Part shown: piece after piece, positions 8,768 through 38,814 of the stretch
Numbering within the stretch: the first letter of the stretch is position 1
Layout of the letters: every line of letters starts with the position of its first letter
Assembly (NCBI GenBank): GCA_015680905.1
Contig: CM027382.1
Location: forward strand, 2,170,001 to 2,234,000
Length of the DNA stretch: 64,000 bases
Direction: 5' to 3'
Origin: Coptis chinensis
Lineage: Eukaryota > Streptophyta > Magnoliopsida > Ranunculales > Ranunculaceae
Notes under the pieces: generated by a model
The model's database searches: none
Seen by the model: only the letters and a program-made list of their open reading frames with translations
Told to the model about the DNA's origin: nothing
Program-made: the position numbers and the translations under genes

Positions 8768-9181
8768 CACAAGGGGTATTTTTCGAGCTCTATTAAAATT
8801 CCATGCCATCTTTTATTAAAATGATAATTTCTCTCCTATTTGAAAAAAATAGGAATTTCTCTTCTATTATAACGATAATTCTTCTCCTATTAAAACAAAT
8901 TCTAACACTTTTAATTAAAGTGAAAATTCTTCTCCTATTAAAATGAGAATTCCCCCCCTATTGAAAATTAAGCGAAAATCTAGCGTATCTAATTAAAACT
9001 AGAATCATTATTCTATTAAAACAAATCTCTATCCCAATTGAAAAAACGGATTTTTAAAACTTTTAAAACAATTTGTTATAAAATTAAAACGGGTTAGCGA
9101 CTAAAATGGTAGTCTCAATTTTCTAAAAAAATATAAATGTTTTCAAAAGAACCGGTGCGTATGCACGGGCCTACAAGCTAG
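8767..9181 (+). mobile_element. Helitron A, 5'-truncated copy
   Basis: This matches 24857-25270, including the right end: a hairpin around CCGGTGCGTATGCACGGG and a terminal CTAG followed by T. Those are features of plant Helitron 3' ends. The first 25 bp or so are missing because the copy is fused to the truncated LTR at about 8767. Confidence 0.75.
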
Positions 9182-9230
9182 TAATACATATGTCACATAT
9201 AAGTAAGTGATATCTACTATCTATATACTA

Positions 9231-11155: not shown

Positions 11156-14035
11156 CAAAGATTAAATTAATGGAAAATCGGAAACTGGATGCAACTACAT
11201 TGAACTAACCTCAAAAAAAATTTAAATTATAAATTGGAAACATAATGCAAATGTGTGGAACTAATCTTAAAACATAATTAACAGGAAATTGAAAACCAAA
11301 TGCAACTGCACTGAACTAATTTAAAAAAATACATTGGATGCAAAACCTCAAGAAATAATTAATGGGAAATCGAAAACTGGTTGCAAATTCATTGAACTAA
11401 CCTCAAATAATATTTAACGGGAAATCAGAAACTGGATGCAAATGCAAGCATTAAATTAATCTTAAAAAGTAATTAATAGAAAATCGGAATATGGATACAA
11501 CTGCATTAAACTAACCTCAAAGAATAATTAACGGAAAATCAATACTTGGATGCAAATACATCAAACTAACATAAAAAAATTATTGTCGGAAAATTGGAAA
11601 CTGGATGCAAATGCATTGAGCTAACCCTCAAAGATTAAATTAACGGGAAGTCGGAAACTGGATTCAACTGCATTGAACTAACCTTAAAGAAAAATTAATT
11701 ATAAATTGAAAACATAATGCAAATGCGTGGAACTAATCTTAAAGAATAATTAACGGGAAATCGGAAACCGGATGTAACCGCACTTAACTAATCTCAAAAA
11801 ATAAACTGGATGCAAAACCTCAAGAAAAAATTAACGGAAAATTGAAAACTGGATGCAAACTTATTGAACTAAGCTCAAACAATAATTAACGAAAAATCAG
11901 AAACTAGATGCAAATGCAACTTTATCAAATAATAAACAAGAAATATGAAACTGGATGCAAATACATTAAACTAATCTCACATAATAATTAACATGAAATC
12001 AGAAACTGGATGCAAATGCATTGAACTGACCTCAAAGAACAATTAACATAAAATTGGAAATTGGATGCAAATATATTGAACTAACCGAAAATAATAATTA
12101 ACAAGAAAACAGAAACTATATACAACTGCATTGAACTGATCTCAAAAAATAAATAACGGGAATTGGAAATTGGATGCAACTGCAGTGAACTAACCTTAAA
12201 ATATAAATACTGGAAAATCAGAAACTGGATACAAATGCATTGAGTTAACCTCAAAATATAGTTGGGTTATATGTTGTGGGAATGTCTCGATAAGTATAGT
12301 TTTGCATTTAAAATGGTGTTTATCTTATCCCTTTCCGTATGATTGGGAACTCCTTGCTATTCAAGTAACTTCAATATATATGAGCTTCGCCTTATTAGGC
12401 AATCTCACAAAACTTCAATCAAATTTCTATTATTAAACAACAAAATGAAGTTGAAGGGTTTTATCAAAGGTGAGTTTTTTTTTTTAATAGAGAGTGAGGT
12501 TTTCACGTTATAAGAACTTTGGTTGAGTGATCAATATAATATTAATATATAATAGTTATGCATATTTGCAAATATTTTTCAGAATAATTAATATGACAAC
12601 ACCCGTTCGTAGATAATCTTTGAAGATTCCACATAGTGAGTCATGCATAATTTAAAAAATAATTAACAGAAAATTAGGAACTAGATAATCTTTGATGATC
12701 CCACATAGTAAATTAAGCATAATTTACTTTTTATGTCATGTTTGCAAGGACACTATAGATGGATTAGTAGAAGTTGGTATTGCACACCACATTGGATAAT
12801 TATAAGAAAATCAGAAACTGGATTCAAATACATAACTGAGTTCAAAGAGTAATTAACTGGGAAATCAGAAACTTTATGCAAATTACATTAAACTAACGAC
12901 AGAGAATAACTAACGGGAAATTAGAAATTAGATGTAAGTCTTTGAAAAATATTTAAGAGAAAATCAGAAACAGTATGCAAATACATCAAACAAACCTTAA
13001 ATAATAATTAATGGAAAACCGGAAACTGGATGCAAATGCATTGAACTTAACTCAAAAAATAATTAACAGAAAATCAAAAACTGAATGTAACTGCATTGAA
13101 CTAACCTCACAGAATAATTAGTGGGAAATCAGAAGCTAAATGCAAATGCATTGAAATAACCTCAAAGAATAGTTAATGGGAAATCAGAAACCGGATATAA
13201 TTGTATCAAACTAACCTCAAAGCATAAATAATCAGAAACTAGATGCAGATGTATTGAACTAACATTAAAGAGTTATTAATGGGAAATTGGAAATTGGATC
13301 CAAATGCAATGAACTAATCTCAAAGACTAATTAACGAAACATTGAAAAATAGATGAAACTGCACTGAACTAACCTAAATGAATAATTAACGAGAAATTAT
13401 AAATTTGATATAACTGCATTGAACTAACCTCAAAAAATAATTAACATGAAATCGGAAACTTGATGCAAATGCATTGAACTAACCTCAAAGAACAATTAAC
13501 ATAAAATCGGAAATTGGATGCAACTGCATTGAACTAACCTTAAAGAATAATTAACGGAAAACCAAAAACTGGATGCAACTGCATTAAACTAAAATCAGAT
13601 ATTAACTAACGGGAAATCAGAAATTGGATGCAAATGCATTGAAATAACCTAAAAAAATAGTTAATTAAAAATCGGAAATCGGATTTAACTACATCGCACT
13701 AACCTCAAAGCATAAATGTCCACTTTTTTAGCCTTCTTACATGAGTAATTACGAGTAATTAGGAACCTAAAACGAAAGTGAGTTTATAAAAACACTCTTA
13801 CATGTATGCAAACTGTATAGAAATAGTAAACTATCAAACTAACCTAGAAAAACAATTAACGGGAAATCAGAAACTGGATGCAAATGTATTGAACTAATCT
13901 CAAAGAGTAATTAACAGGAGATTGGAACCTGGATGCAAATGCGATGAACTAATCTTAAAGACTAATTAACGAAACATTGAAAACTGGATGCAACTATACT
14001 ATTGAATTAACCTTAATGAATAACTAACGGGAAAT
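9600..14035. repeat. 55-bp minisatellite array, first composite unit
   Basis: The unit is about 55 bp and contains 'aattaacgggaaatcggaaa', 'ctggatgcaa(a/c)tgcattgaa' and 'ctaacctcaaag'. Clean examples start at 13441, 13496 and 13551. It runs in blocks at about 9600-10575, 11156-12260 and 12790-14035, and resumes at 17511-17740 after the LINE. Units diverge by substitutions and small indels. Non-repeat blocks at about 10575-11155 and 12260-12790 interrupt it. Confidence 0.88.
10573..12558. repeat. Second inverted pair within the minisatellite
   Basis: About 130-150 bp at 10573-10705 ('gatcactcaaccaaatttct', 'aacttcattttgttgtttaa') recurs inverted at about 12405-12558 ('aacaacaaaatgaagttgaa', 'tttggttgagtgatcaatat'). 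It flanks a minisatellite block. The same pair is present in the second composite unit (26671 and 28170 against about 30010-30155). Confidence 0.75.
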
Positions 14036-14293
14036 AATCAAACAACACTCAAGTGAAGCTAAGAGGGGGGAGGCCGCAACATGGTGTGGCCTCTCTAGTT
14101 CTAGTGAGAGAAACCTTATACCCTTTCCATTTCTAGTAATATTTTATCATAGGCTATAAGAGTTCCTACAAAAAAAGCTCCCTTTTTAGGCAAACTTCCC
14201 AAGCTTGACCACCATTGACTCACAACTTCTACTTCTCTGGCCAGGCTCTTTTTGAAGATCTCTCCTCTAAGAATTGATCTATACTCTACCACT

Positions 14294-16440
14294 ATGGAAA
14301 ACCCACTAGCTTCGGTCAATGATTTCCCCCCCTTACTAGCAACATCTCTAACTGTTGCTTGTAATGTTACTCCTCAAAATGCTAACTTGGCCTCTCCTTC
14401 AAATTTCAAGTTAGTACTCATCACGCTAATTCTTCATGGAGCTCTCTCTTTAAAGCGAGTCGCTCTGACAACTCTGTTGCACTAAAGAAGGTGAATGTCA
14501 ACATAGTTGACGGTGTTGCAACAATCCCATCTGAGCTTATCAACAAGGGTATAAATGAGTGGAGCAACTACGTGGTGGGGTTCTTCTTCGGAAGGAGGCT
14601 GCCTTACCCACTAGTAGGGGTGGGAATTTGGCCCTAACGACCCTAACCCGGCCCTGACCGACCCGACCCTAAGCCCTATAAAGCCCTCACAACTAAAGCC
14701 CTCACAGAGTTTAGGGTAGGGCCGGGCCGGGCCTACCCTAATGCCTTCTCTAGTAAGGGGCTAGGCTAAGATTCTAAAACATAGGTCCGACCCTAACCAA
14801 GCCCTAACCGGCCCTGTTTCACACTTTCACTATAAATACACATACCATAATTGTCCAACTCTTTGTTAAATATTTTCAATTAAAATAACATTGTCCTTTG
14901 TAATTTATCACTTACACCCAAGGGTACTTCCAATAACTTGTCTTATATAACAAAAACTTGTCAACTTAATGTACCATGAAGAACAACAATGAGCACTAGC
15001 CTAATAAAAAAATAAGACTTTATTCCTTTGATCATCAAGTCAAAGTCCATAACTTATTATTCTCAATTTCTTTTCTCACTTATTTATTATAAATTATATT
15101 TTTATTCACATCCAAGCCAAGTCTAAAACTAAAGATTTCCTTCCACACCATTAAAGCAAAATACAGAGCACACATTTGTAACATAGAAACCAAAAAACAA
15201 CCTTTGTCAGAAAAATGACATTTGTAATCTCAAACCTTTCTCCATCACTTGTTCAAAAGCCAATATTTTCATTTCCATATACAAAGCTTGAATCACTTTT
15301 AAATTAGAAGAAAGGTAATATTATATTTGTTTGAATCTATTATAGAAATAATTTATGATATTACAAATAGTTTAACAACTTCCATGACCCTTAACCAAAA
15401 CTATTATGTTTCTTCTTTATATCTATTACTTCTTCCTTTAAAATGATAATATAATTATTTGTCTATGTATTTCAATTTAAAATGTAATTTTAGTGAGGTT
15501 TGAGTACAAGGAAGAACAAATTCCGAACTCTCGATGTACTTCAGTTCATTAGATTGTGGATGTGCATTTTAAATTTTTGGACTTATACAAGATTATTACT
15601 AGATTGGTTGGACTTTGAGTTTGTAGATTATTGTACATTTTTGTAATATAAATGAGTTTTAAAACTGATGTAGTAAAAAAAATATATATATATATAGGCC
15701 CGGCCCTAAACCCCGGCCCTAAAGCCTTTAAAGAGGGCTTAGGGTAGGGTAAGGGCTTGAGGTTTAGACTTGTGACCTGGCCCGACCCGGCCCTATGCTT
15801 GACTTTTAGGGGTCGAAATGACCCCCGCCCTAATATTTGAAGGGCTTTAAATGTTTAGGGCTGGGCTAGCCCGACCCGGCCCATTGCCCACCCCTACCCA
15901 CTAGTGTGAGATTTCGTGCAAAAAAACTAGAAACTCAAAGGTGGGTACTCCATCTCTACTGACAAAGATTTATTTTACTTCAAGTTTAGTTTAGTGGAAG
16001 ACATGAGGCAAATCTTAGAAGCAGACCCAATCTATATCATTGGGAAGCTTTTGTCATTCGGGTGGGACACCGGAGGTGGAAGCTCAGAAATCTTCTATCA
16101 AAACACTGCCAATTTAGGTAAAACTGATGAACCTACCCGAACAACTATGGACAGATGATGGACTCGACTATGTAGCAAGTCTAATAGGAAACCCTAAGTG
16201 TATGGACGGGCCACTAAGCTAAGGCAAAGGCTTAACTTTGCAAAGTTTTGTGTTGAGGTTCCAGTTGATCATGAGTACAAGAAATCGAGTTAGGATCAAG
16301 ATGAATGAAAAGGAGATGGACATAGACCTTGAATATCCATGGATTCCGTTACCGCTTCAACTTGCAAAAAATTTGGGCACAAGCGGTCGGTTGTACATCA
16401 AACACTAAAACTGTATGGGTAGTGAAAGAGACCGGTGACA
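14294..16440 (+). pseudogene. LINE ORF1 (DUF4283-type) remnant, copy 1
   Basis: The frame starts at ATG 14294 (MENPLASVNDF) and is soon lost by a frameshift after 'ANLASPS'. It is then split by the hAT insertion at 14615-15896. The DUF4283-like part resumes near 15920 and is again broken by small indels (for example, 'ttttgtcatttggcag' of the other copy is altered near 16050). The motif order (KLKGGYSIS, then VKL.NLP, then RLNFAKFCVEV) is that of L1-type ORF1 proteins of plants. It cannot give a full product. Confidence 0.75.
14615..15896. mobile_element. hAT element (TAGGGGTGGG ends) nested in the LINE
   Basis: Terminal inverted repeats TAGGGGTGGGAATTTGG and CCATTGCCCACCCCTA are flanked by a perfect 8-bp duplication CCCACTAG (14607-14614 and 15897-15904). 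The LINE copy in the second unit keeps the single, uninterrupted CCCACTAG near 33690. The ends are rich in 'ggccctaa' repeats and the interior is AT-rich with no transposase. Confidence 0.93.
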
Positions 16441-16713
16441 AACAGAAAGAGCAAACAGTGAATGTACAAACCGAAGTAGTCGGAAGTCATTAATGTGGTG
16501 GAAAATAACACTACATTTCCGGGACTCGATGTAATTTCTATATCTCCACCTACAGAGCAACCTAGTAAGCCAATTGTGCGTAATGTAAATCCCTTCCAAA
16601 TGATTGAGCAAGAAGAACGGGGAGGAATTAAGTACACCTGTACAAATCAACTATCAACATCAACATCATAGTGATGTAAGAGGTGGCACTTCGCAAGAGA
16701 GGAAGTTTTAGAG

Positions 16714-17274
16714 GTGGCTCGCGCTACTAAAGGTGGAACATCATCTAGAGGTGGCCTAACTGTTAGTATGGGTGCTTCTAACAGAGGAGACTCAACTGGT
16801 AGGGTAGTAGCATATGAGAAAGACCCTATAAATGTCTTGGCAGTTGGGACTCAAGAGATGAACACTTTGGAGTTAGCTAATGCGAGCAAAGGAGAATTAG
16901 AAGATGACCTCCTTGAATCCGAACACGAATTATTTGTAGATCATGTTCCTAAGAGTACATCAGGGTATACAACACAGTCTAAGGATCAAAACGAATGGAG
17001 TGTTGCGAATCCAAAAAGAAGCAAAAGAATACAAGAGCGTTCTTCGGGAGAAGTAGAGCTCACTCTTGCAATGATGAAAAAGGTAAAGTCAATAGTTAAA
17101 AACAAAAAGATGAGGAATCTTGAGGACTACACCAAAGAATTTTGGGATGACACTCTAGGACTCACTTATGTGTGTTGTGCTTGCAAGGGTTTCTTCTGTG
17201 ACTATGAGAAAGCGCAGACTCATCATAGGAAGGATCATCCAAAGATAGTGAAGCAATTAATGGCCAAAAAGTAA
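16714..17274 (+). pseudogene. LINE 3' frame with a C2H2 zinc-finger-like motif
   Basis: An open frame of 186 codons forms the last coding part of the ORF1-only LINE. It is hydrophilic, with a basic KKVKSIVKNKKMRN stretch, and ends with a C-x2-C-x12-H-x4-H pattern (VCCACKGFFCDYEKAQTHH followed by RKDH), encoded at about 17168-17242. It probably continued ORF1 before frameshifts upstream separated it. In the second unit the frame is broken just at the finger (about 34970). No clear ATG start supports it as an independent gene. Confidence 0.6.
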
Positions 17275-18208
17275 GAGAATGAGATAGCATTGCTTGCTAT
17301 CACTTCATTCTTGATCGAGGACCCATTGTGATATGTCTAGCTAGTGAGTAATCTCATCTTTGTCAAGTTTGTTGCGTGTTGCATTTGATTTAGTAAGGAT
17401 TTGTGTGCTTCCCTAATGATCTAACTCTTAGGGAGGCTTTGTAAGGTTCAATGTTCAATAAACACAGGTGGGGGTCTGCCTTAACCCCATAACCATTTCA
17501 AAAAAAAAAAACTAACGGGAAATCATAAAGTGGATGCAATTGCATTGAACTAACCTCAAATAATAATTAACTGGAAATTAGAAACTTAATGCAAGTGCAT
17601 TGAACTAACCTCAAAGAATAATTAATGAGAAATTAAAAACTGGATGCAATGTACGACATTAAACTAACCTCAAAGAATAATTAATGGAAAATCAGAAAAT
17701 TGATGCAAATGTATTGAACTAATAACCTCAAAACATATTTGTATTATATGTAGGGGGAATAAATGTCTCGACAAATATAGTTTTGCATTTTAAATATTGT
17801 TTATTATAATTCTTTTATTATGATTGGGAATGCCTTGCTATTCAAGTAGCTTCAATATTATCTTCGCCACATTGGGCATTCTCACAAAACTTCAATCAAA
17901 TTTCTATTATTAAACCTAACAATAAAAAGAAGTCGATGAGTTTTATCAATGTTTGGTGCTTCCTTTTTATAGAGAGTGGTGCAAAAAATTTAAATGAGTA
18001 ATTAATATAATTTTCATATCTCATAGCTATGCATAGTTGCTAATATTTTTTTAGAATAATTTAATATAATGACACCCGTTCGTAGGACACGTTCATGTCA
18101 TAAATCTTTTCAAGTGTGAGTAGTGTATTCTTTGAGGATATGTAAACAATCAATTTGTTTAAGTGATTTGTATACATTAGTACGTAAGTCGAACGATGAT
18201 GATTTACC

Positions 18209-18860
18209 GCTAAATCACCATAAATCTAATAAAACTATTATACAAGCTAGATCGAGTTTAAGATAATTTCATTTGAAAATTACGGATTAATATTCTAAAC
18301 CACAAAGTGAATATGCTATCTCAATTTGATCCCTTAGTTTCCAAGTACTTATACACCATAATCGCTGCTCATTAACGTATTTCGGTTTATTTTCAATAAA
18401 AATATATTATGATTCTAAAATTTGCCACTAAATCACCATAAATCTAAGAAAACTATTATATAAGCTAGATCGAGTTTAAGATAATTCTATTTAAAAATTA
18501 TGGATTAATATTCTAAACCACAAAGTAAATAGGCTATTTCAATTTGATCATTTAGTTTCCAAGTACTTATGCACCATAATCGCTGCCCATTAACGTATTT
18601 CGATTTATTTTCAATAAAAATATATTTTGATTCAAAAATTTGCTGCTAAATCACCATAAATCTAAGAAAAATATTATACAAGCTATATCGAGTTTAAGAT
18701 AATTTTATTTGAAAATTACGGATTAATTTCCTAAACTACAAAGTGAAGAGGCTATTTCAATTTAATCTATTAGTTTCTATGTACTTATGCACCATAATCG
18801 TTGGTCATTAACGTATTTTGGTTTATTTTCAATAAAAATATATTCTGATTCGAAAATTTG
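18209..18860. repeat. Three 218-bp tandem repeats near the Helitron B 3' end, copy 1
   Basis: The phrase 'taaatcaccataaatcta' starts at 18211, 18429 and 18647, a constant spacing of 218 bp. Each unit continues through 'agctagatcgagtttaagat', 'cttatgcaccataatcgctg' and 'tcaataaaaatatatt'. The array ends about 80 bp before the terminal hairpin. Confidence 0.88.
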
Positions 18861-18939
18861 TGTGAGACATTTTGTAAAGCCTTTTCAACACACAAAATAT
18901 TTAATAGATCCCTGGCGTATGCTCGGGTCCAAAATCTAG

Positions 18940-19330
18940 TAACAATCTAAAACAAAATAAAGTAAAAAAACTACAAGTCTGAGTGGTGGAGTGCTAGTTG
19001 GCCTAAGAGTTTTCTTTGGTGGTTTTTTACTTTTTACGATTTTGATTATTTTTTCTCGGTGAAGCGAAATGCTTTCAATATATAGATTCGTGGGTTTTTA
19101 TTTTTTGGGCTTTTTTGTAGACTTAAATTTAAAAAAAAAACAAAAAACAAACAAACAAACAAAACCTGTAAGCCTATTAATCAGCATATTTTTTATACCG
19201 ATTTTCCGATTAATCGCCGATTAAACAGAAGAAATCGGCCGTTTTATGGCACCCGGTCAGACCTCTAAATTTTTTCTTAATCAGCTTATACACCGATTAA
19301 GTTAGGATTAATAGGCGCTTAAACTGCACA
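18940..19330. mobile_element. Right end of the large outer hAT-like element, copy 1
   Basis: This matches 36729-37098 and ends with GCGCTTAAACTGCACA, the inverted partner of the left end at 24748. Its left end is missing in this unit because of the fusion at 8767. Subterminal 'gattaatcg' motifs repeat within it. The right flank, ATACAGAC, corresponds to the target site GTACAGCG at 5961-5968. Confidence 0.65.
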
Positions 19331-19727: not shown

Positions 19728-21048
19728 ATGGCTTCCGCAAAAGTATCTGAAGTGGTGGTAGAGGGATATGATAAGTACCGATCATATATATGGGGAGAGG
19801 GAGAAAAGAACACCGTTTGGAGGTTCGGTGCACCTCCAACCTATGATATTGTAAACAAGCTCTTTGAAGAAGGCAGGACCCAGGTAATTTGCTCAACAAA
19901 TGAGTTACTCGACATAACCATGCACGGTTATTTCATTTCAATCTAAAGTTGTGAATAATTAGCTAAGCCAGTAGTTAGGTGGGCAACTGTTTTGTTGAGT
20001 TTTGAATTGAGCTTCACCATTTCCTTTGTTTGTTCTAGGAATGGGCAGTGGGAACTCTGGAGGAAAAAGTGCAACGACTGTTGAAGTCATGGGAAATGGA
20101 AATATTCCATAAAGTACGACCGCAAGACTTCAAAACCCTGAATCCTGAAACGTTCACATCCAGCATTAATGGTACATATCTTGCAAATCCTCGTGTGTAC
20201 AATTTTTAGTTCTTGTTAAAATTAAGCTAGTATTGTGGCATTTCTAAATAAAGTCCACTGGCACGGTTCTAGCCCAAGGTAGTTAAGGACTTGAGGAATG
20301 TCAGTGAGCATGTCTGATGCCGCTGATGATGGCATTCGTGCCTAGTTGTACTCAAAATATGTAACTAGTGAAAGATAAAAAGAAAGTGATGTGCTCTTTA
20401 TAAATTTTACGATGTAATATGTCGGTGATTTTGTGTAGGGAGGCCGGCCGCCAAGCTTGAAAATGTACTAGGTATTGGAGGGTACAATGCATTCTTGCAA
20501 ACTACTCTGCCAGTGAATCTACGTGCATATGATCCAAGCCAAGAAACATCTGAATCATCTCAACTTGTATTCAGAGGCACATTCCCACGTGGATTTGCGA
20601 TTGAAGTTCTTGAAGTTTATTCAGATGCTCCTGTAATTGTCTACAAATTTCGACACTGGGCTTACATGGAAGGTCCTTTCAAAGGTCATGCTCCCACTGG
20701 AGAGCTGGTAGAATTTTATGGAACTGCCATCTTCACGGTAACGCTATTTCCTTATCCTCTCTTTCAAGTCCTTATTATATCTCATCCTACTCATTTACAA
20801 ATAAATATTCGACTCTTTATGTTCTGTAGTTTGAACACTAATATAACATTTTGAAGTGTACATATTCTTACTTTTAATTCTTTGGAATTCCTTGGCAGCT
20901 TGATGAATCCATGAAACTTGAGAAGGTTGAGATATTTTATGATCCAAGTGTCTTACTTGGGCAACTTCTGAAGGGTCCTCTTCTTGATGTTGGGGAGGCA
21001 TCCATAACTAGTACAACTACTTCTGGTTGCCCCTTCTTAAGGTCCTAG
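19728..21048 (+). CDS. Pathogen-related protein (NTF2/SnoaL-like), copy 2
   Basis: Exons 19728-19883, 20039-20171, 20439-20737 and 20899-21048 give an intact 245-aa protein, with every splice site in register with copy 1 (constant offset 13,364). Relative to copy 1 it has A4, R98, N105, P146, V162, E207, S213 and I232; relative to copy 3 only residues 4 and 213 differ. The conserved family blocks are unchanged. Its upstream DNA is the end of the large hAT-like element, whose boundary lies about 400 bp before the ATG, and its G-box is broken. A copia LTR begins about 335 bp downstream. It is most likely a functional recent duplicate, but expression may differ from copy 1. Confidence 0.9.
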
Positions 21049-22618: not shown

Positions 22619-22619
22619 T

Positions 22620-24739: not shown

Positions 24740-24831
24740 GTATAGAGTTGTGCAGTTTAAACGCTAATCGGGAGCAAGTCACTCCAAGAGCTTATAGCGA
24801 TTAATCGGAATTAATTGCCTTAGTTAACATA

Positions 24832-25270
24832 TCTATATCTTAATATTAAAGCTCCCACAAGGAGTATTTTTCGAGCTCTATTAAAATTCCATGCCATCTC
24901 TTATTAAAATGATAATTTCTCTCCTATTTGAAAAAAAATAGGAATTTCTCTTCTATTATAACAATAATTCTTCTCCTATTAAAACAAATTCTAACACTTT
25001 TAATTAAAGCGAAAATTCTTCTCCTGTTAAAATGAGAATTCCTCCCCTATTGAAAATTAAGCGAAAATCTAGCGTATCTAATTAAAACTAGAATCATTAT
25101 TCTATTAAAACAAATCTCTATCCCAATTGAAAAAACGGGTTTTTAAAACTTTTAAAACAATTTGTTATAAAATTAAAACGGGTTAGCGACTAAAATGGTA
25201 GTCTCAATTTTCTAAAAAAATATAAATGTTTTCAAAAGAACCGGTGCGTATGCACGGGCCTACAAACTAG
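24832..25270 (+). mobile_element. Helitron A (439 bp), complete
   Basis: It starts with TCTATATCTTAATATTAAAG after A. It ends with a strong hairpin (CCGGTGCGTATGCACGGG, GTAT loop) about 11 bp before terminal CTAG, which is followed by T. It has no TIRs or target duplication, as expected for A/T insertion of a Helitron. It is non-coding. Confidence 0.78.
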
Positions 25271-25689
25271 TAATACATATGTCACATATAAGTAAGTGAT
25301 ATCTACTATCTATATAGTAAAGCGCAGAAACTTTTAAAGGAAGATTTTCTCTTTTCTATGTGGCACTCTAATATGAGAGTTAGCTTTTTCTCTATCCTAT
25401 GTGGCACTCTAATATGAAAGATAATATTTTCTAATAGCCTACAATCCCACGTACAACTTCTTTTGAGAGTTTGTGTGTATTTCTAATTCTTATATATTTT
25501 ATCAAATAAAAAAAAAATGCTAAAAAATAGGTGATTTGTATAAGGTAATTTCCTATTACAAATTAAACATTTTTAGTGTTCCAATTCTTATATATTTAGT
25601 CAAATAAAAAAAATTGCTAAAAAAGAGGTGATTTGTAGAAATTAATTTCCTATTACAAATCATACAATTTTAGTGTCTATGATAAAACA

Positions 25690-28600
25690 CTAACTTATTA
25701 ATTAATAGAGAAATCAGAATATAGATACAACTGCATTAAACTAACCTCAAAAAATAATTAACGAAAAATCAAAATTTAGATGCAAATACATCAAACTAAC
25801 ATCAAAAAATAATTATCTGAAAATCGGAAACTTGATGCAAATGCATTGAGCTAACCCTCAAAGATTAAATTAACGGGAAATCAGAAACTGGATGCAACTG
25901 CATTGAACTAACATCAAAGAAAAATTATTTATAAATTGAAAACATAATGCAAATGTGTGGAACTAATCTTAAAACATAATTAACGGGAAATCGAAAACCG
26001 AATGCAATTGCACTAAACTAATCTAAAAAAATACATTGGATGCAAAACCTCAAGAAATAATTAATGAGAAATCGGAAACTGGTTGCAAATTCATTGAACT
26101 AACCTCAAATAATATTTAAAGGGAAATCAGAAACTGGATGCAAATGCAAGCATTAAATTAATCTTAAAAAGTAATTAATAGAAAAATCAATAATATGGAT
26201 ACAACTGCATTAAACTAACCTCAAAGAATAATTAACGGAAAATCAAAACTTGGATGCAAATACATCAAACTAACATAAAAAAATTTATTGTCGGAAAATC
26301 GGAAACTGGATGCAAATGCATTGAGCTAACCCCTCAAAGATTAAATTAACGGAAAATCGGAAACTGGATTCAACTGTATTGAACTAACCTCAAAGAAAAA
26401 TTAATTATAAATTGAAAACATAATGCAAATGCGTGAAACTAATCTTAAAAAATAATTAATGGGAAATCGAAAACCGGATGCAACTGCACTTAACTAATCT
26501 CAAAAAATAAACTGGATGCAAAACTTCAAGAAATAATTAACGGGAAATTGAAAACTGGATGCAAACTCATTGAACTAAGCTCAAACAATAATTAACGAAA
26601 AATCAGAAACTAGATGCAAATGCAACTTTATCAAATAATAAACAAGAAATAGGAAACTGGATGCAAATGCAGAACTATTATATATTAATATTATATTGAT
26701 CACTCAACCAAATTTCTTATAACGTGAAAACCTCACTCTCCATTAAAAATAAAACTCACCTTTGATAAAACCTTTCAACTTCATTTTGTTGTTTAATAAT
26801 TGAAGTTTAAAATATTTATCATTATTGTTTTGCCATTATTTTTTTTTTCCATTTTCTATAATATATTTTGTGATGTTATTTTTTGTATAATTGTTTTTAA
26901 CTATGTTTTGAGGTCGTGTTAAGAATATATTCAAAACAAGTCGGTGCTTTATCATAGACACTAAAATTGTATGATTTGTAATAGGGAATTAGTTTCTACA
27001 AATCACATATTTTTTAGTAATTTTTTTTATTTGATCAAATATATAAGAATTGGATCACTAAAAGTGTTTAATTCGTAATAGGAAATTACCTTTTACAAAT
27101 CACCTATTTTTTAGCAGTTTTTTTTTTATTTGATCAATTATATAAGAATTGGAAATACACTCAAACTCTCTAAATATAAAAATTAGAAATACACTCAAAC
27201 TCTCCAAAGAGGTTCTATTAGAGTGCCACATAGGAGAGAGAAAATCCTCAAAGATTAAATTAATGGGAAATCGGAAACTGGATGCAACTGCATTGAACTA
27301 ACCTCAAAGAAAAATTAAATTATAAATTGGAAACATAATGCAAATGTGTGGAACTAATCTTAAAACATAATTAACGGGAAATCAAAAACTGAATGCAATT
27401 GCACTAAACTAATCTAAAAAAATACATTGGATGCAAAACCTCAAGAAATAATTAATGAGAAATCGGAAACTGGTTGCAAATTCATTGAACTAACCTCAAA
27501 TAATATTTAAAGGGAAATCAGAAACTGGATGCAAATGCAAGCATTAAATTAATCTTAAAAAGTAATTAATAGAAAATCAGAATATGGATACAACTGCATT
27601 AAACTAACCTCAAAGAATAATTAACGGAAAATCAAAACTTGGATGCAAATACATCAAACTAACATAAAAAATTTATTGTCGGAAAATCGGAAACTGGATG
27701 CAAATGCATTGAGCTAACCCCTCAAAGATTAAATTAACGGAAAATCGGAAACTGGATTCAACTGTATTGAACTAACCTCAAAGAAAAATTAATTATAAAT
27801 TGAAAACATAATGCAAATGCGTGGAACTAACCTCAAAGATTAAATTAACGGAAAATCGGAAACTGGATTCAACTGTATTGAACTAACCTCAAAGAAAAAT
27901 TAATTATAAATTGAAAACATAATGCAAATGCGTGGAACTAATCTTAAAAAATAATTAATTGGAAATCGAAAACCGGATGCAACTGCACTTAACTAATCTC
28001 AAAAAATAAACTGGATGCAAAACCTCAAGAAATAATTAACGGGAAATTGAAAACTGGATGCAAACTCATTGAACTAAGCTCAAACAATAATTAACGAAAA
28101 ATCAGAAACTAGATGCAAATGCAACTTTATCAAATAATAAACAAGAAATAGGAAACTGGATGCAAATGCAGAACTATTATATATTAATATTATATTGATC
28201 ACTCAACCAAATTTCTTATAACGTGAAAACCTCACTCTCCATTAAAAATAAAACTCACCTTTGATAAAACCTTTCAACTTCATTTTGTTGTTTAATAATT
28301 GAAGTTTAAAATATTTATCATTATTGTTTTGCCATTATTTTTTTTTTCCATTTTCTATAATATATTTTGTGATGTTATTTTTTGTATAATTGTTTTTAAC
28401 TATGTTTTGAGGTCGTGTTAAGAATATATTCAAAACAAGTCGGTGCTTTATCATAGACACTAAAATTGTATGATTTGTAATAGGGAATTAGTTTCTACAA
28501 ATCACATATTTTTTAGTAATTTTTTTTATTTGATCAAATATATAAGAATTGGAACACTAAAAGTGTTTAATTCGTAATAGGAAATTACCTTTTACAAATC

Positions 28601-31600
28601 ACATATTTTTTAGCAGTTTTTTTTTTTTATTTGATCAATTATATAAGAATTGGAAATACACTCAAACTCTCTAAATATAAAAATTAGAAATACACTCAAA
28701 CTCTCCAAAGAGGTTCTATTAGAGTGCCACATAGGAGAGAGAAAATCCTCAAAGATTAAATTAATGGGAAATCGGAAACTGGATGCAACTGCATTGAACT
28801 AACCTCAAAGAAAAATTAAATTATAAATTGGAAACATAATGCAAATGTGTGGAACTAATCTTAAAACATAATTAACGGGAAATCGAAAACCAAATGCAAC
28901 TGCACTAACTAATCTAAAAAAATACATTGGATGCAAAACCTCAAGAAATAATTAATGGGAAATCGGAAACTGGTTGCAAATTCATTGAACTAACCTCAAA
29001 TAATATTTAACGGGAAATTAGAAACTGGATGCAAATGCAAGCATTAAATTAATCTTAAAAAGTAATTAATAGAAAATCGGAATATAGATACAACTGCATT
29101 AAACTAACCTCACAGAATAATTAACGGAAAATCAATACTTGGATGCAAATACATCAAACTAACATAAAAAATTTATTGTCGGAAAATCGGAAACTGGATG
29201 CAAATGCATTGAGCTAACCCTCAAAGATTAAATTAACGGGAAGTCAGAAACTGGATTCAACTGCATTGAACTAACCTTAAAGAAAAATTAATTATAAATT
29301 GAAAACATAATGCAAATGCGTGGAACTAATCTTAAAAAATAATTAACGGGAAATCGGAAACCGGATGTAACTGCACTTAACTAATCTCAAAAAAAATAAA
29401 CTGGATGCAAAACCTCAAGAAATAATTAACGGAAAATCAAAAACTGGATGCAAACTCATTGAACTAAGCTCAAACAATAATTAACGAAAAATCAGAAACT
29501 AGATGCAAATGCAACTTTATCAAATAATAAACAAGAAATAGGAAACTGGATGCAAATACATTAAACTAATCTCACATAATAATTAACATGAAATCAGAAA
29601 CTGGATGCAAATGCATTGAACTGACCTCAAAGAATAATTAACAGGAAATTGGAAATTGGATGCAAATATATTGAACTAACCGAAAAAGAATAATTAACAA
29701 GAAATCAGAAACTATATACCACTGCATTGAACTGATCTCAAAAAATAAATAACGGGAATTGGAAATTGGATGCAACTGCAGTGAACTAACCTTAAAATAT
29801 AAATACTGGAAAATCAGAAACTGGATACAAATGCATTGAGCTAACCTCAAAATATAGTTGGGTTATATGTTGTGGGAATGTCTCGATAAGTATAGTTTTG
29901 CATTTAAAATGTTGTTTATCTTATCCCTTTCCGTATGATTGGGAACTCCTTACTATTCAAGTAACTTCAATATATATGAGCTTCGCCTTATTAGGCAATC
30001 TCACAAAACTTCAATCAAATTTCTATTATTAAACAACAAAATGAAGTTGAAGGGTTTTATCAAAGGTGAGTTTTTTTTTTAATAGAGAGTGAGGTTTTCA
30101 CGTTATAAGAACTTTGGTTGAGTGATCAATATAATATTAATATATAATAGTTCTGCATATTTGCAAATATTTTTCAGAATAATTAATATGACAACACCCG
30201 TTCGTAGATAATCTTTGAAGATTCCACATAGTGAGTCATGCATAATTTTAAAAATAATTAACAGAAAATTAGGAACTAGATAATCTTTGATGATCCCACA
30301 TAGTAAATTAAACATAATTTACTTTTTATGTCATGTTTGCAAGGACACTATAGATGGATTAGTAGAAGTTGGTATTGCACACCACATTGGATAATTATAA
30401 GAAAATCAGAAACTGGATTCAAATACATAACTGAGTTCAAAGAGTAATTAACTGGGAAATCAGAAACTTTATGCAAATTGCATTAAACTAACGACAGAGA
30501 ATAACTAACGGGAAATTAGAAATTAGATGTAAGTCTTTGAAAAATATTTAAGAGAAAATCAGAAACAGTATGCAAATACATAAAAAAACCTTAAATAATA
30601 ATTAATGGAAAACCGGAAACTGGATGCAAATGCATTGAACTTAACTCAAAAAATAATTAACAGAAAATATAAAACTGAATGCAACTGCATTGAACTAACC
30701 TCACAGAATAATTAGTGGGAAATCAGAAGCTAAATGCAAATGCATTGAAATAACCTCAAAGAATAGTTAATGGGAAATCAGAAACCGGATATAATTGTAT
30801 CAAACTAACCTCAAAGCATAAATAATCAGAAACTAGATACAGATGTATTGAACTAACATTAAAGAGTTATTAATGGGAAATTGGAAATTGGATCCAAATG
30901 CAATGAACTAATCTCAAAGACTAATTAATGAAACATTGAAAAATAGATGAAACTGCACTGAACTAACCTAAATGAATAATTAACGAGAAATTATAAATTT
31001 GATATAACTGCATTGAACTAACCTCAAAAAATAATTAACAGGAAATCGGAAACTTGATGCAAATGCATTGAACTAACCTCAAAGAACAATTAACATAAAA
31101 TCGGAAATTGGATGCAACTGCATTGAACTAACCTTAAAGAATAATTAACGGAAAACCAAAACCTGGATGCAACTGCATTAAACTAAAATCAGATATTAAC
31201 TAACGGTAAATCAGAAATTGGATGCAAATGCATTGAAATAACCTAAAAAAATAGTTAACTAAAAATCGGAAATCGGATTTAACTACATCGCACTAACCTC
31301 AAAGCATAAATGTCCACTTTTTTTAGCCTTCTCACATGAGTAATTACGAGTAATTAGGAACCCAAAGCGAAAGTGAGTTTATAAAAACACTCTTACATGT
31401 ATGCAAACTGTATAGAAATAGTAAACTATCAAACTAACCTAGAAAAACAATTAACGGGAAATCAGAAACTGGATGCAAATGTATTGAACTAATCTCAAAG
31501 AGTAATTAACGGGAGATTGGAACCTGGATGCAAATGTGATGAACTAATCTCAAAGACTAATTAACGAAACATCGAAAACTGGATGCAACTATACTATTGA

Positions 31601-31630
31601 ATTAACCTTAATGAATAACTAACGGGAAAT
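25690..31630. repeat. 55-bp minisatellite array, second composite unit, with 1.5-kb tandem duplication
   Basis: The same 55-bp unit as at 9600-14035 runs in blocks at about 25690-26670, 27245-28169, 28745-29850 and 30370-31630, and again at 35302-35520. The phrase 'agaactattatatattaata' recurs at 26671 and 28170, so a block of about 1,499 bp is duplicated in tandem here but single in the first unit. A 111-bp (two-unit) duplication starts at about 27721 and 27832. Confidence 0.88.
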
Positions 31631-31856
31631 AATCAAACAACACTCAAGTGAAGCTAAGAGGGGGGATGCCGCAACATGGTGTGGCCTCTCTAGTTCTAGT
31701 GAGAGAAACCTTATACCCTTTCCATTTCTAGTAATCTTTTATCATAGGCTATAAGAGTTCCTACAAAAAAAGCTCCCTTTTTAGGCAAACTTCCCAAGCT
31801 TGACCACCATTGACTTACAACTTTACTTCTCTGGCCAGCCTCTTTTTGAAGATCTC

Positions 31857-33330
31857 TGATAAGATCCCAAAACTGTAGTTTTAACCCTGTAACAGTCATA
31901 CTTTTAGACCAATTATGTGAGTAATAATTAAGAGTTAATACTGATTACGTGTTTTTATGCATTTCAGGCTTCAAAGTCCATTATGTACAGAAATGTGTCA
32001 CTTTAGCGAGATAAAGGAGCAAAGCTCGGTTGCTAAGGAGTTCTATGAATAAAGGCCAAGATTGAAGAAGACAAAGCCTTTCTAAAGCCCGGTCATAAGC
32101 TGAAAAGTCGACGTAAAACGTAAACAGACACAAAAGTCGTGAGAACCGAAGGTCGTATCTTTGGACTCAGACCTCAGAATTGGGCCTACCTTATGTCAAA
32201 ACGATCGGCTCGGAAAGAGCTTTCCAATAGTCTAAGCCTTGACCCAATCAGAGGAGCAAAAGTGGACGAAAAGTCTATTGAAGCCAACTGCAGCTGAAGA
32301 GGCCTTTTTGGACTGAAAGAATTGGGTTTTGGGCCTGATTCTCTGGCCCAAAACATGGCTCCAAGCCCATGCACAATTTTTGGATCTGAAAGTATAAAAA
32401 CCAAAGCTTAGCTCTTTGTTAATGGTAGATAGTTAGACCTAGATTAGATTTAGATTAGTTAGCCTCCATTAATGAGTTTTAGAACTTAGTTTTAGAATTT
32501 CATTTCTTATTTTAGATTAATTTCTTGAATCATTGAATATCATTCATTAGATAAATAAAATAGTTATTATTCTTGTCATTTCGATTTTTGTTATTTCAAT
32601 CTATTAGATCTAGTTTTAATTATTGTTGGTTACCATTTCTTAGTTGTTAATTAGAATTTAATTATTGTTTAATTTATAAGATTAGTAAATTGTGAATCTT
32701 GATATTATGTTTAGTTTAGATTCATATGGAAATGATTGCGGAATGATTCAAGGCTAAAACCTCCATTAGAGGGGTTGATGAAGTTTTGATGAAAACTTAG
32801 TGGTATAGTGTAGAAGCATTGTAGAATCTATTCCAGTCTAGAAGGTCGTGATTCGTCATGAGAATGGGTGGACGACCTCACATGCTAGTTAGTATTTGAT
32901 AGAAATGCCATGAACACTAGGGATTAGAACTCGAAATTCTTGCCGTAAGAACGTAAGAATCGAGATACAAGAATCTATGCTAGGTTATTAAGTTGGATTC
33001 GAGGTGGATTCAATTCCCCTCTAATCATTTATCTAGATTCAAAAACAATCATATTTCCATAGCATTCGTAGTTTAAATTCAACGTAATCAATTTCATATT
33101 ATATCGTAGTATAACACTCTTCGTAAGGCTCTCATTAGACTTAAGACTGATAAATTAGATTAGAAAACACTCCATGCTAGAGAACTAGGAGTGAAACAAA
33201 TTTGTTACTCCACTCTATTTCGATAGAATTGAGAGTAGAAACTTTGATAAATATAGACACGTAAATAGTTTTAGTTTACTTACGTTTATCGTTCATTTCG
33301 TAGGTAGACTATCATTTTTATGTTTTATCA
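31857..33330. mobile_element. Solo LTR (1.47 kb) nested in LINE copy 2
   Basis: The insert starts TGATAAGATCCC and ends TTTTATCA, with a perfect 5-bp duplication ATCTC (31852-31856 and 33331-33335). LINE copy 1 has the uninterrupted site near 14257. TG...CA ends plus a 5-bp duplication mean an LTR, and no internal domains are present, so it is a solo LTR. The length would suit a Ty3/gypsy element, but the family is not proved. Confidence 0.85.
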
Positions 33331-33366
33331 ATCTCTCCTCTAAGAATTGATCTATACTCTACCACT

Positions 33367-34216
33367 ATGGAAAACCCACTAGCTTCGGTCAATGATTTCC
33401 CCCCCCCCCCCCTTACCAGCAACATCTCTAACTGTTGCTTGTAATGTTACTCCTCAAAATGCTAACTTGGCCTCTCCTTCAGCTCAAGTTAGTACTACTG
33501 CTGCTAATTCTTCATGGAGCTCTCTCTTTAAAGCGAGTCGCTCTGACAACTCTGCTGCACTAAAGAAGGTGAATGTCAACATAGTTGACGGTGTTGCAAC
33601 AATCCCATCTGAGCTTATCAACAAGGGTATATATGAGTGGAGCAACTACGTGGTGGGGTTCTTCTTAGGAAGGAGGCTGCCTTACCCACTAGTGTGAGAT
33701 TTCGTGCAAAAAAACTGGAAACTCAAAGGTGGGTACTCCATCTCTACTGACAAAGATTTATTTTACTTCAAGTTTAGTTTAGTGGAAGACATGAGGCAAA
33801 TCTTAGAAGCAGACCCAATCTATATCACTGGGAAGCTTTTTGTCATTTGGCAGTGGACACCGGAGGTGGCAACTCAGAAATCTTCTATCAAAACACTGCC
33901 AGTTTGGGTAAAACTGATGAACCTACCCAAACAACTATGTACAGATGATGGACTCGACTATGTAGCAAGTCTAATAGGAAACCCTAAGTGTATGGACCAG
34001 GCCACTAAGCTAAGGCAAAGGCTTAACTTTGCAAAGTTTTGTGTTGAGGTTCCAGTTGATCATGAGTACAAGAAATCAGTTAGGATCAAGATGAATGAAA
34101 AGGAGATGGACATAGACCTTGAATATCCATGGATTCCGTTGCCGCTTTCAACTTGCAAAAATTTGGGCACAAAGCGATCGTCAGTTGTACATCAAACACT
34201 AAAACTGTATGGGTAG
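33367..34216 (+). pseudogene. LINE ORF1 (DUF4283-type) remnant, copy 2
   Basis: This is the better preserved of the two copies. The start ATG is at 33367; the frame is shifted at a C run (14 C here, 7 C in the other copy) but reads on through ANLASPSAQVSTTAANSS to a stop at 33695-33697. A second open stretch (33704-34216) has the DUF4283 core (QKNWKLKGGYSIS, EADPIYITGK, LPVWVKLMNLP, QRLNFAKFCVEVPVDHEYKK). Downstream the frame is lost by indels. The role in the family is RNA or nucleic-acid binding during LINE transposition. Confidence 0.8.
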
Positions 34217-34733
34217 TGAAAGAGACCGGTGACAAAACAGAAAAGAGCAAATAGTGAATGTACAAACCAAGAAGTAGGTGAATTAATGTGGTGGAAAATA
34301 ACACTACAATTTCGGGACTCGATGTAATTTCTATATCTCCGCCTACAGAGCAACCTAGTAAGCCAATTGTGCGAGAATGTAAATCCCTTCCAAATGATTG
34401 AGCAAGAAGAGCGAGGAGGAATTAAGTACACTGCACAAATCAAGCTGTCAACATCAACATCACAAGTGATGTAAGAGGTGGCACTTCCGCAAGAGGAAGT
34501 TTTAGAGGTGGCTCTCGCTACTAAAGGTGGAACATCATCTAGAGGGTGGCCTAACTGTTAGTATGGTGCTTCTAACAGGAGACTCAACTGGTAAGGTAGT
34601 AGCATATGAGAAAGACCCTATAAATGTCTTGGCGGTTGGGACTCAAGAGATGAACACTTTGGAGTTAGCTAATGCGGCGAAGGAGAATTAGAAGATGACC
34701 TCCTTGAATCGAACACCTAATTATTTGTAGATC

Positions 34734-34973
34734 ATGTTCCTAAGAGTACATCGGGGTATACAACCCAGTCCTAAGGATCAAAACGAATGGAGTGTTGTAA
34801 TCCAAAAAAGAGCAAAAAGAATACAAGAGCTGGGAAAAGTAGAGCCCACTCTTGCAATGATGAAAAAGGTAAAGTCAATAGTTAAAAACAAAAAGATGAG
34901 GAATCTTGAGGACTACACCAAAGAATTTTGGGATGACACTCTAGGACTCACTTATGTGTGTGTTATTTTATGA
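34734..34973 (+). pseudogene. LINE 3' frame, copy 2, zinc finger lost
   Basis: An 80-codon stretch corresponds to the later part of 16714-17274. It includes the KKVKSIVKNKKMRNLEDYTK block, then frameshifts exactly at the CxxC part of the zinc-finger-like motif and stops. Confidence 0.6.
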
Positions 34974-36000
34974 GGGTTTCTTTCGTGACTATGAGAGCCT
35001 TGAGAGACTCATCTTAGGAAGGATCATCCAAAGATAGTGAAGCAATTAATGGCCAAAAAGTAAGAGAATGAGATAGCATTGCTTGCTATCACTTCATTCT
35101 TGATCGAGGACCCATTGTGATATGTCTAGCTAGTGAGTAATCTCATCTTTGTCAAGTTTGTTGCGTGTTGCATTTTGATTTTGTAAGGCTTTGTGTGCTT
35201 CCCTAATGATCTAACTCTTAGGGAGGCTTTGTAAGGTTCAATGTTCAATAAACACAGGTGGGGGTCTGCCTTAACCCCATAACCATTTCAAAAAAAAAAA
35301 AACTACGGGAAATCATAAAGTTAATGCAATTGCATTGAACTAACCTCAAATAATAATTAACTGGAAATCAGAAACTTAATGCAAGTGCATTGAACTAACC
35401 TCAAAGAATAATTAATGAGAAATTAAAAACTGGATGCAATGTACGACATTAAACTAACCTCAAAGAATAATTAATGGAAAATCAGAAAATTGATGCAAAT
35501 GTATTGAACTAATAACCCCAAAACATATTTGTATTATATGTACGGGGAATAAATGTCTCGACAAATATAGTTTTGCATTTTAAATATTGTTTATTATAAT
35601 TCTTTTATTATGATTGAAAATGTCTTGCTATTCAAGTAGCTTCAATATTATCTTCGCCACATTGGGCATTCTCACAAAACTTCAATCAAATTTCTATTAT
35701 TAAACCTAACAATAAAAAGAAGTCGATGAGTTTTATCAATGTTTGGTGCTTCCTTTTTATAGAGAGTGGTGCAAAAAATTTAAATGAGTAATTAATATAA
35801 TTTTCATATCTCATAGCTATGCATAGTTGCTAATATTTTTTTAGAATAATTTAATATAATGGCACCCGTTCGTAGGACACGTTCATGTCATAAATCTTTT
35901 CAAGTGTGAGTAGTGTATTCTTTGAGGATATGTAAACAATCAATTTGTTTAAGTGATTTGTATACATTAGTACGTAAGCCGAACGATGATGATTTACCGC

Positions 36001-36650
36001 TAAATCACCATAAATCTAATAAACTATTATACAAGCTAGATCGAGTTTAAGATAATTTCATTTGAAAATTACGGATTAATATTCTAAACCACAAAGTGAA
36101 TAGGCTATCTCAATTTGATCCCTTAGTTTCCAAGTACTTATACACCATAATCGCTGCTCATTAACGTATTTTGATTTATTTTCAATAAAAATATATTATG
36201 ATTCTAAAATTTGCCACTAAATCACCATAAATCTAAGAAAACTATTATATAAGCTAGATCGAGTTTAAGATAATTCTATTTGAAAATTATGGATTAATAT
36301 TCTAAACCACAAAGTAAATAGGCTATCTCAATTTGATCATTTAGTTTCCAAGTACTTATGCACCATAATCGCTGCCCATTAACGTATTTCGATTTATTTT
36401 CAATAAAAATATATTTTGATTAAAAAATTTGCTGCTAAATCACCATAAATCTAAGAAAACTATTATACAAGCTAGATCGAGTTTAAGATAATTTTATTTG
36501 AAAATTACGGATTAATATCCTAAACCACAAAGTGAAGAGGCTATTTCAATTTAATATATTAGTTTCTAAGTACTTATGCACCATAATCGCTGGTCATTAA
36601 CGTATTTTGGTTTATTTTCAATAAAAATATATTCTGATTCGAAAATTTGT
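36001..36650. repeat. Three 218-bp tandem repeats, copy 2
   Basis: 'taaatcaccataaatcta' starts at 36001, 36218 and 36436. The units match those at 18211-18860. Confidence 0.88.
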
Positions 36651-37376
36651 GTGAGACATTTTGTAAAGCCTTTTCAACACACAAAATATTTAATAGATCC
36701 CTGGCGTATGCTCGGGTCCAAAATCTAGTAACAATCTAAAACAAAATAAATTAAAAAAACTACAAGTCTGACTGGTGGAGTGCTAGCTGGCCTAAGAGTT
36801 TTCTTTGGTGGTTTTTTACTTTTTACGGTTTTGATTATTTTTCCACGGTGAAGCGAAACACTTTCAATATATAGATTCGTGGGTTTTTATTTTTTGGGCT
36901 TTTTTGTGGACTTAAATTTTTAAAAAAAAAACAAACAAAACCTGTAAACCTATTAATCGGCATTTTTTTTATACCGATTAATCGCCGATTAAAGAGAAGA
37001 AATCGCCCGTTTTATGGCACCCGTTCAGACCTCTAAATTTTTTCTTAATCAGCTTATACTCCGGTTAAGTTACGATTAATAGGCGCTTAAACTGCACAGT
37101 ACAGAGACAATTAGGGAAATAGCATAACAATATAACATAGATGACCAGATGCAAAGTCACACTTCAATACGGAATTGTACAGTGGATCTGGTATATTGGC
37201 ACATGTCTTAAACGGATATATTAAAGACAATGTTTTATAAAACGAACTGGTAATGTAAATCTCGAACCGGGAATAGTCAGCTATGCTAATATTATACGTT
37301 TATTTCACTTCAAATAAGGTTTATGGTCTGCACACGCATATATTTTGTGTGGAAATTGTACGTTCCTTGAAGCAGC

Positions 37377-37491: not shown

Positions 37492-38814
37492 ATGGCTTCC
37501 GAAAAAGTATCTGAAGTGGTGGTAGAGGGATATGATAAGTACCGATCATATATATGGGGAGAGGGAGAAAAGAACACCGTTTGGAGGTTCGGTGCACCTC
37601 CAACCTATGATATTGTAAACAAGCTCTTTGAAGAAGGCAGGACCCAGGTAATTTGCTCAACAAATGAGTTACTTGACATAACCATGCACGGTTATTTTAT
37701 TTCAATCTAAAGTTGTGAATAATTAGCTAAGCCAGGAGTTAGGTGGGCAACTGTTTTGTTGAGTTTTGAATTGAGCTTCACCATTTCCTTTGTTTGTTCT
37801 AGGAATGGGCAGTGGGAACTCTGGAGGAAAAAGTGCAACGACTGTTGAAGTCATGGGAAATGGAAATATTCCATAAAGTACGACCGCAAGACTTCAAAAC
37901 CCTGAATCCTGAAACGTTCACATCCAGCATTAATGGTACATATCTTGCAAATCCTCGTGTGTGTACAATTTTTAGTTCTTGTTAAAATTAAGCTAGTATT
38001 GTGGCATTTCTAAATAAAGTCCACTGGCACGGTTCTAGCCCAAGGTAGTTAAGGACTTGAGGAATGTCAGTGAGCATGTCTGATGCCGCTGATGATGGCA
38101 TTCGTGCCTAGTTGTACTCAAAATATGTAACTAGTGAAAGATAAAAAGAAAGTGATGTGCTCTTTATAAATTTTACGATGTAATATGTCGGTGATTTTGT
38201 GTAGGGAGGCCGGCTGCCAAGCTTGAAAATGTACTAGGTATTGGAGGGTACAATGCATTCTTGCAAACTACTCTGCCAGTGAATCTACGTGCATATGATC
38301 CAAGCCAAGAAACATCTGAATCATCTCAACTTGTATTCAGAGGCACATTCCCACGTGGATTTGCGATTGAAGTTCTTGAAGTTTATTCAGATGCTCCTGT
38401 AATTGTCTACAAATTTCGACACTGGGCTTACATGGAAGGTCCTTTCAAAGGTCATGCTCCCACTGGAGAGCTGGTAGAATTTTATGGAACTGCCATCTTC
38501 ACGGTAACGCTATTTCCTTATCTTCTCTTTCAAGTCCTTATTATATCTCATCCTACTCATTTACAAATAAATATTCGACTCTTTATGTTCTGTAGTTTGA
38601 ACACTAATATAACATTTTGAAGTGTACATATTCTTACTTTTAATTCTTTGGAATTCCTTGGCAGCTTGATGAATCCATGAAACTTGAGAAGGTTGAGATA
38701 TTTTATGATCCAAATGTCTTACTTGGGCAACTTCTGAAGGGTCCTCTTCTTGATGTTGGGGAGGCATCCATAACTAGTACAACTACTTCTGGTTGCCCCT
38801 TCTTAAGGTCCTAG
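37492..38814 (+). CDS. Pathogen-related protein (NTF2/SnoaL-like), copy 3
   Basis: Exons 37492-37647, 37803-37935, 38205-38503 and 38665-38814 give an intact 245-aa protein. The only length change against copy 2 is 2 bp in intron 2. It differs from copy 2 at residues 4 (E instead of A) and 213 (N instead of S), and carries R98, N105, P146, V162, E207 and I232 like copy 2. All family blocks are present, including GEGEKNTVWRFGAPPTYD and YKFRHWAYMEGPFKGHAPTG. Unlike copies 1 and 2 it has no copia LTR downstream; homology ends at about 39149, at the exact LTR insertion point. It is likely functional, with the same family role as copy 1. Confidence 0.9.

Follow-up and report, generated by a model that had tools for sequence, protein, structure and literature searches.

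Nested transposons are common in plants; the nest described here is of an ordinary kind and is documented with unusual completeness. It lies in a 64,000-nucleotide stretch of the Coptis chinensis genome (C6:2170001-2234000 of 936 Mb; hereafter the window), where composites of transposable elements, including two Helitrons, stand upstream of copies of one gene. Plant Helitrons have been described as elements that start with 5′ TC, end with 3′ CTAG, carry a hairpin upstream of that end, insert between A and T and prefer positions near or inside other Helitrons (excerpts of PMC3288121 and PMC12477314). Surrounding AT-richness has been reported as a property of Helitron targets (PMC4778049, in excerpt). 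Rolling-circle tandem arrays of plant Helitrons are known from Xiong et al. (2016), as described in part of a review (PMC12628747), and Helitrons with internal tandem arrays have also been described (excerpts of PMC3833285 and PMC12628747).

Related composites were found at 8768-19330, before gene copy 2, and at 24748-37098, before gene copy 3 (composites 1 and 2, respectively); none precedes gene copy 1. The starting point of our account is a pair of genes, one of which has a ~490-bp non-autonomous hAT-like element (the outer element) in its 5′ flank. Two Helitrons, A and B, inserted at A^T dinucleotides in the AT-rich core of this element, and the 55-bp array of Helitron B in turn received a long interspersed nuclear element (LINE). 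Genes 1 and 3 may then have crossed over unequally, producing a third gene (copy 2) and a second composite before it, and a 2.7-kb deletion would have trimmed the left end of composite 1. The last events would be entry of a long terminal repeat (LTR) element, now a solo LTR, into composite 2 and of a 1,282-bp hAT-type element into composite 1, and the doubling of a 1.5-kb unit in composite 2. Taken as a whole, this history of nesting, crossover, deletion and later insertion is considered highly probable. The insertions are seen directly in their junctions, their free-standing families and their empty sites. The window supplies the empty sites of three insertions and the genome those of the rest, which allows the succession of events to be read off instead of guessed.

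In front of gene copy 3, within its 5′ flank, the outer element is split by Helitron A and Helitron B. Its inverted ends are TGTGCAGTTTAA, from 24749, and TTAAACTGCACA, ending at 37098; the flanks GTATAGAG and GTACAGAG match at 7 of 8 positions. An earlier note on this DNA had claimed inverted ends with an 8-bp duplication. The ends hold; the duplication is imperfect in the window and draws its support from free copies elsewhere (see below). The same note had placed an empty target before gene copy 1, and the sequence there indeed reads uninterrupted through GTACAGCG; homology to the gene-1 flank stops exactly at the boundary of the outer element. Inverted ends with a near-duplication are inadequate alone, because 19 pairs of inverted 12-mers with a near 8-bp duplication were obtained in 60 shuffles of this AT-rich window. 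Such a count would allow the ends to be a product of chance and the outer element not to exist, an explanation with next to no probability: it is refuted by the presence of the element, whole and between the same ends, at 19 of 28 other loci. The existence of the outer element rests on the homology break at the gene-1 flank together with these free-standing genomic copies.

The host-genome loci examined were the best-scoring part of larger families. The right piece (query 36731-37098) gave 244 candidates, of which 40 were scored, with 41 matches; 30 loci were fetched via the right end, two being the window's own. The 19 intact elements among the 28 others measure 479-526 bp between TGTGCAGTTTAA- and TTAAACTGCCCA-type ends and are thus too short to hold either Helitron. 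The window copy shares 87.5-91.2% identity with them. Genomic copies carry one extra base per side (Y-TGTGCAGTTTAAGC...TTAAACTGCCCA-R), in agreement with the start at 24748 given in the earlier note, and the window copy has probably lost one base at its right end. An 8-bp duplication (at most two mismatches) was detected one base beyond the TGTGCAGTTTAA/TTAAACTGCCCA-type ends in 13 of the 19; in the direct register, without the extra base per side, it was detected in none of the 19. A Mutator-type 9-bp duplication, which the window flanks allow, was dropped in view of the 8-bp register in the 13 copies. Many copies show short terminal inverted repeats, reading TGTGCAGTTTAAGC on one side and TGGGCAGTTTAAGC on the other. 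Based on its 8-bp duplications and short inverted ends, the outer element is best classed as hAT-like. Where they reach, uninterrupted copies are continuous across both Helitron insertion points; most read TTAACCTA^TAATAC and AAGTGATA^TAACAACC, with small variations, at the Helitron A and B sites of the window.

Each Helitron alone, like the outer element without Helitrons, was recovered from the genome as a separate repeat family, as the earlier note had proposed to check. Helitron A has a TC start, a CTRR end, an A^T target and no target duplication. Its 3′ hairpin (six pairs) is weak alone: 17 of 200 shuffles fold equally well. A genome search gave 1,536 candidates, 40 of them scored, and free single copies share its ends. 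Head-to-tail arrays were present, by a fixed rule, at 17 of 28 non-window loci, and 15 of 28 contain one or more junctions in which base 439 is joined exactly to base 7. In these arrays (L033-L060) the inner units begin at element base 7, and many single copies carry six extra leading bases, TCTATA. No match to Rep/helicase was detected in the 7 scanned frames of the 20 listed for composite 2, where the longest stop-to-stop frame (172 codons) lies inside the LINE. Helitrons A and B are predicted to be non-autonomous at most.

Searching with the 3′ part of Helitron B gave 3,528 candidates; 40 were scored and 18 non-window copies were fetched. In the window A precedes TC and T follows CTAG, and CTAG before T ends 17 of the 18 other copies. 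The 55-bp arrays belong to Helitron B, because an array is present in all 18; the earlier note had counted this minisatellite as a separate component, which is abandoned here. Among the three best matches listed for each copy, the array lies upstream of the 3′ part in 17 of 18, the listed matches of L080 lying beyond its 3′ end. No outer ends, Helitron A or LINE were found in the fetched stretches of the 18 copies, five of which continue into a further Helitron B 5′ end. The 3′ hairpin palindrome CCCGGGCGTATGCCCGGG was read directly in several copies; the hairpin is imperfect in the window, and 38 of 200 shuffles fold equally well. The nearest relative is L081, 95-97% alike over three long blocks, in which the unusual inverted 5′ segment also occurs. 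The TC of L081 is preceded by G instead of A, a departure from the A^T rule. A start of Helitron B at 25302, suggested by the outer copies, was dropped: the sister copy and the tandem junctions start at TCTATATA. The 11-mer GGCACCCGTTC occurs in composite 2 at 35861, in Helitron B, and at 37016, in the outer element, and nowhere else in the window.

The two Helitrons, the LINE and the solo LTR named in the earlier note are all present, the last two with their target duplications (Table 1). The LINE duplicated 13 bp of the 55-bp array, and its empty site is present in the sister copy L081. Its first open reading frame (ORF1) matches DUF4283 (E 8.3e-25); no reverse transcriptase was detected in the frames scanned. 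The earlier note had put the LTR within the duplicated block, which does not hold, as it is missing in composite 1; reciprocally, the 1,282-bp hAT-type element is missing in composite 2. Because each is absent from the other composite, both most likely entered after the composite was duplicated. The two inverted parts of the 1.5-kb unit of composite 2 differ from each other at 2 of 602 positions and from composite 1 at 8 of 603 and 8 of 602. The 3′ part of the LINE (15897-17508 versus 33688-35302) is 6.3% different, with 21 gap openings and clustered differences, in composites otherwise ~98% alike; consensus error in a high-copy stretch and conversion from other copies would both fit.

The identity of the two composites is 97.8-98.3% in their Helitron B parts and falls to 93.7% in the 3′ part of the LINE and to 94.6% in the right piece of the outer element. 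They are not both complete: composite 1 begins inside Helitron A at 8768, its left end lost. Gene 2 has a composite upstream, like gene 3, and a downstream sequence (21383-22147) that matches 8018-8767 of gene 1 (96.7%). There are 37 sites at which gene 2 matches one of genes 1 and 3 but not the other. Before 7768 gene 3 is favoured, 19 to 6, and after it gene 1, 9 to 3 (Fisher p 0.005, with the cut point picked on the data; shuffles with the cut re-chosen, 70/5000). Gene copy 2 therefore looks like a gene 3/gene 1 crossover product, and unequal crossing over between genes 1 and 3 would yield its flank order. We infer further that a deletion matching 22148-24855 (2.7 kb) joined 8767 to Helitron A. 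The earlier note had the block duplicated together with the gene; composite and gene do occur twice, in the same orientation and ~98% alike in the Helitron parts, as would also follow from direct tandem duplication of composite and gene 3 with no crossing over with gene 1. That simpler copying is improbable, as the sequence past gene 2 matches the downstream flank of gene 1 rather than gene 3, and the informative sites close to the 3′ end of gene 2 are mostly shared with gene 1; unequal crossing over followed by the deletion fits better. Between genes 1 and 3 (window 5961/37099) divergence is 1.9% right of the insertion point and 8-13% left of it. The jump is located at the composite, as if the composite had bounded gene conversion.

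Several observations weigh against the proposed history. By the rule used, 9 of the 28 outer loci lack an intact element, and 6 of the 19 intact elements lack a matching duplication. The target duplication of the window is 7/8, and the right end is without the usual extra base. The seven bases at 25302-25308 are assigned to none of the elements. The crossover signal within the gene is modest, with scattered sites of the opposite type, and 16 further sites distinguish gene 2. Differences between genes 1 and 3 number 38 in 2,048 positions, against 53 in 654 and 79 in 593 for the upstream flanks, so either gene conversion may have acted or the history would be more complicated. Finally, the recurrence of Helitron B at this site in further outer copies would be compatible with an outer element that was already loaded on arrival. 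The landing pad of the earlier note gains from other Helitron junctions in the same core; the outer element may have come empty or with Helitron B already aboard, and the empty site at gene 1 does not distinguish the two.

CTAG ends adjoin outer sequence at the Helitron B site in seven exact places: the two composites, L013 and four more. Helitron B ends were shown in L013 and in the four small stretches fetched, of which L085 and L086 are near-identical and probably represent one event. With 90 exact uninterrupted sites for this dinucleotide, Helitron B occupies 5 of 95 non-window sites, or 4 when L085 and L086 are counted as a single event. At random, ~0.004 occupied sites would be expected for 3,528 copies, a figure that takes A^T density from the window and ignores a general AT-rich preference. 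The junction of Helitron A in the outer element was found in the window pair only. In L020 a relative of Helitron A lies 18 bp from the Helitron B site, and its junction has one further exact match. For a different A^T of the outer element, the one junction queried had no matches, which is half a control, junctions having been counted without uninterrupted sites. As a cause of repeated occupation, a core hairpin was considered: a good fold is given by one copy, L030 (z -4.2), and not by the majority sequence (z -0.9).

All Helitron B cases found at the outer site share one orientation, which fits alike a hot spot and a ~10-kb loaded hAT-like element that had Helitron B already aboard and moved before the gene as a unit. 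The single exact pattern match to an opposite-orientation case was rejected, its upstream bases not being outer sequence. A loaded element would thus account for Helitron B 3′ ends at the same outer position and in the same orientation in five non-window places, none reversed. We consider it unlikely, on the grouping of the copies. A tree test used 32 outer right pieces, with the window pair, L013, L083 and L084 as loaded rows and L085 and L086 left out; the loaded group was named before the test, after a first look at the distances. The loaded copies do not group as one clade (approximately unbiased (AU) test, p 0.020; p 0.023 without the window; four state changes on the tree), so that their single origin is weakly rejected. 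The window and L013 as a clade are not rejected (AU p 0.41). The Helitron B copies of the window and L013 do not group either, although this test would also fail if the window copy had seeded others. Tentatively, and with somewhat less than even confidence, we suggest that a single A^T in the AT-rich core of the outer element is a real hot spot, entered again and again by Helitron B and in the same direction; the small transposon would then act as a docking site through which large Helitrons with arrays come to lie beside genes. If true, repeated use of one target dinucleotide is a testable case of Helitron target choice. Neither the composite nor such a hot spot is named in the titles or abstract beginnings of the literature searched.

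Coordinates of the features are given in Table 1. The right ends of the outer element lie 397 and 393 bp upstream of the ATGs of gene copies 2 and 3 (19728 and 37492), close to the ~390 bp of the earlier note. Each of the three gene copies has an open four-exon frame of 245 codons; exon limits were set on gene copy 1 and transferred to copies 2 and 3 via alignment. Codon differences between the copies are mainly amino-acid changing (8 versus 2 for copies 1 and 2, 7 versus 1 for copies 1 and 3). The Pfam SnoaL match of the product is under its cut-off (E 0.047), and the name 'pathogen-related protein' would be no more than a guess. Elsewhere in the window, 976-1071 matches a C/D-box small nucleolar RNA (Rfam snoZ221/snoR21b). 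Another short element, with CATAGTACAAAA ends and 8-bp duplications, is present in two oppositely oriented copies (193-619 and 54434-54826), the one at 54434 with the perfect duplication GGCGTGCG.

Table 1. Positions, in the window, of the composites, their components and the associated gene copies.
Feature	Position	Strand	Remarks
Unoccupied target before gene copy 1, GTACAGCG	5961..5968	.	
Gene copy 1	6364..7684	+	4 exons, 245 amino acids, open
Composite 1, paralogous copy without outer left piece	8768..19330	+	
1,282-bp hAT-type element, TAGGGGTGGG ends, duplication CCCACTAG	14615..15896	.	In LINE of composite 1 only
Gene copy 2	19728..21048	+	245 amino acids, open; 5′ flank gene-3-type, 3′ flank gene-1-type
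Left target duplication GTATAGAG	24740..24747	.	Register taken from 13/19 free copies
Outer hAT-like element, left piece (T + TGTGCAGTTTAAACGC...)	24748..24831	+	
Helitron A, 439 bp, TC...CTAG between A and T, 3′ hairpin	24832..25270	+	
Outer element, middle piece	25271..25301	+	Aligned with 19 uninterrupted copies
Seven extra bases TCTACTA	25302..25308	.	Absent from other outer copies and from sister Helitron B 5′ end
Helitron B, non-autonomous, 11.4 kb including later insertions, CTAG end before T	25309..36728	+	
55-bp arrays within Helitron B	25699..31630	+	Interrupted by two inverted copies of Helitron B 5′ region (~26667-27249, ~28166-28750)
1.5-kb unit	27243..28743	+	Twice in composite 2, once in composite 1
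LINE remnant (DUF4283 ORF1, poly-A)	31631..35301	+	13-bp duplication ACTAACGGGAAAT, right copy one base short; holds solo LTR
Solo LTR, 1,474 bp, TG...CA, duplication ATCTC	31857..33330	.	Absent at matching composite 1 site (near 14258)
55-bp array, continuation past LINE	35305..35515	+	
218-bp tandem unit, 3 copies, in Helitron B	35992..36649	+	
Outer element, right piece	36729..37098	+	
Right target duplication GTACAGAG	37099..37106	.	
Gene copy 3	37492..38814	+	245 amino acids, open

Classical hAT elements start with CA, whereas the ends of the outer element read YTGKGCAGTTTAAGC. It otherwise resembles non-autonomous hAT elements of the type of miniature inverted-repeat transposable elements in its 8-bp duplications, 13-15-bp inverted ends, length of ~0.5 kb and many copies. 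Helitrons A and B resemble plant non-autonomous Helitrons in the 5′ TC, the 3′ CTAG, the 3′-end hairpin and the A^T insertion; they differ in the occurrence of Helitron B at one dinucleotide of the outer element in several copies and in the G before TC of L081. The head-to-tail units of the Helitron A loci and of 5/18 Helitron B loci recall the rolling-circle arrays, but here the units are joined via 3′ ends that still read CTAG, whereas the review, in the part consulted, stresses truncated units (PMC12628747). The short-repeat array inside Helitron B is comparable to those of internal-array Helitrons as excerpted from PMC3833285 and PMC12628747, from which it is set apart by its 55-bp unit, its plant host and the inverted copies of its own 5′ region between the arrays.

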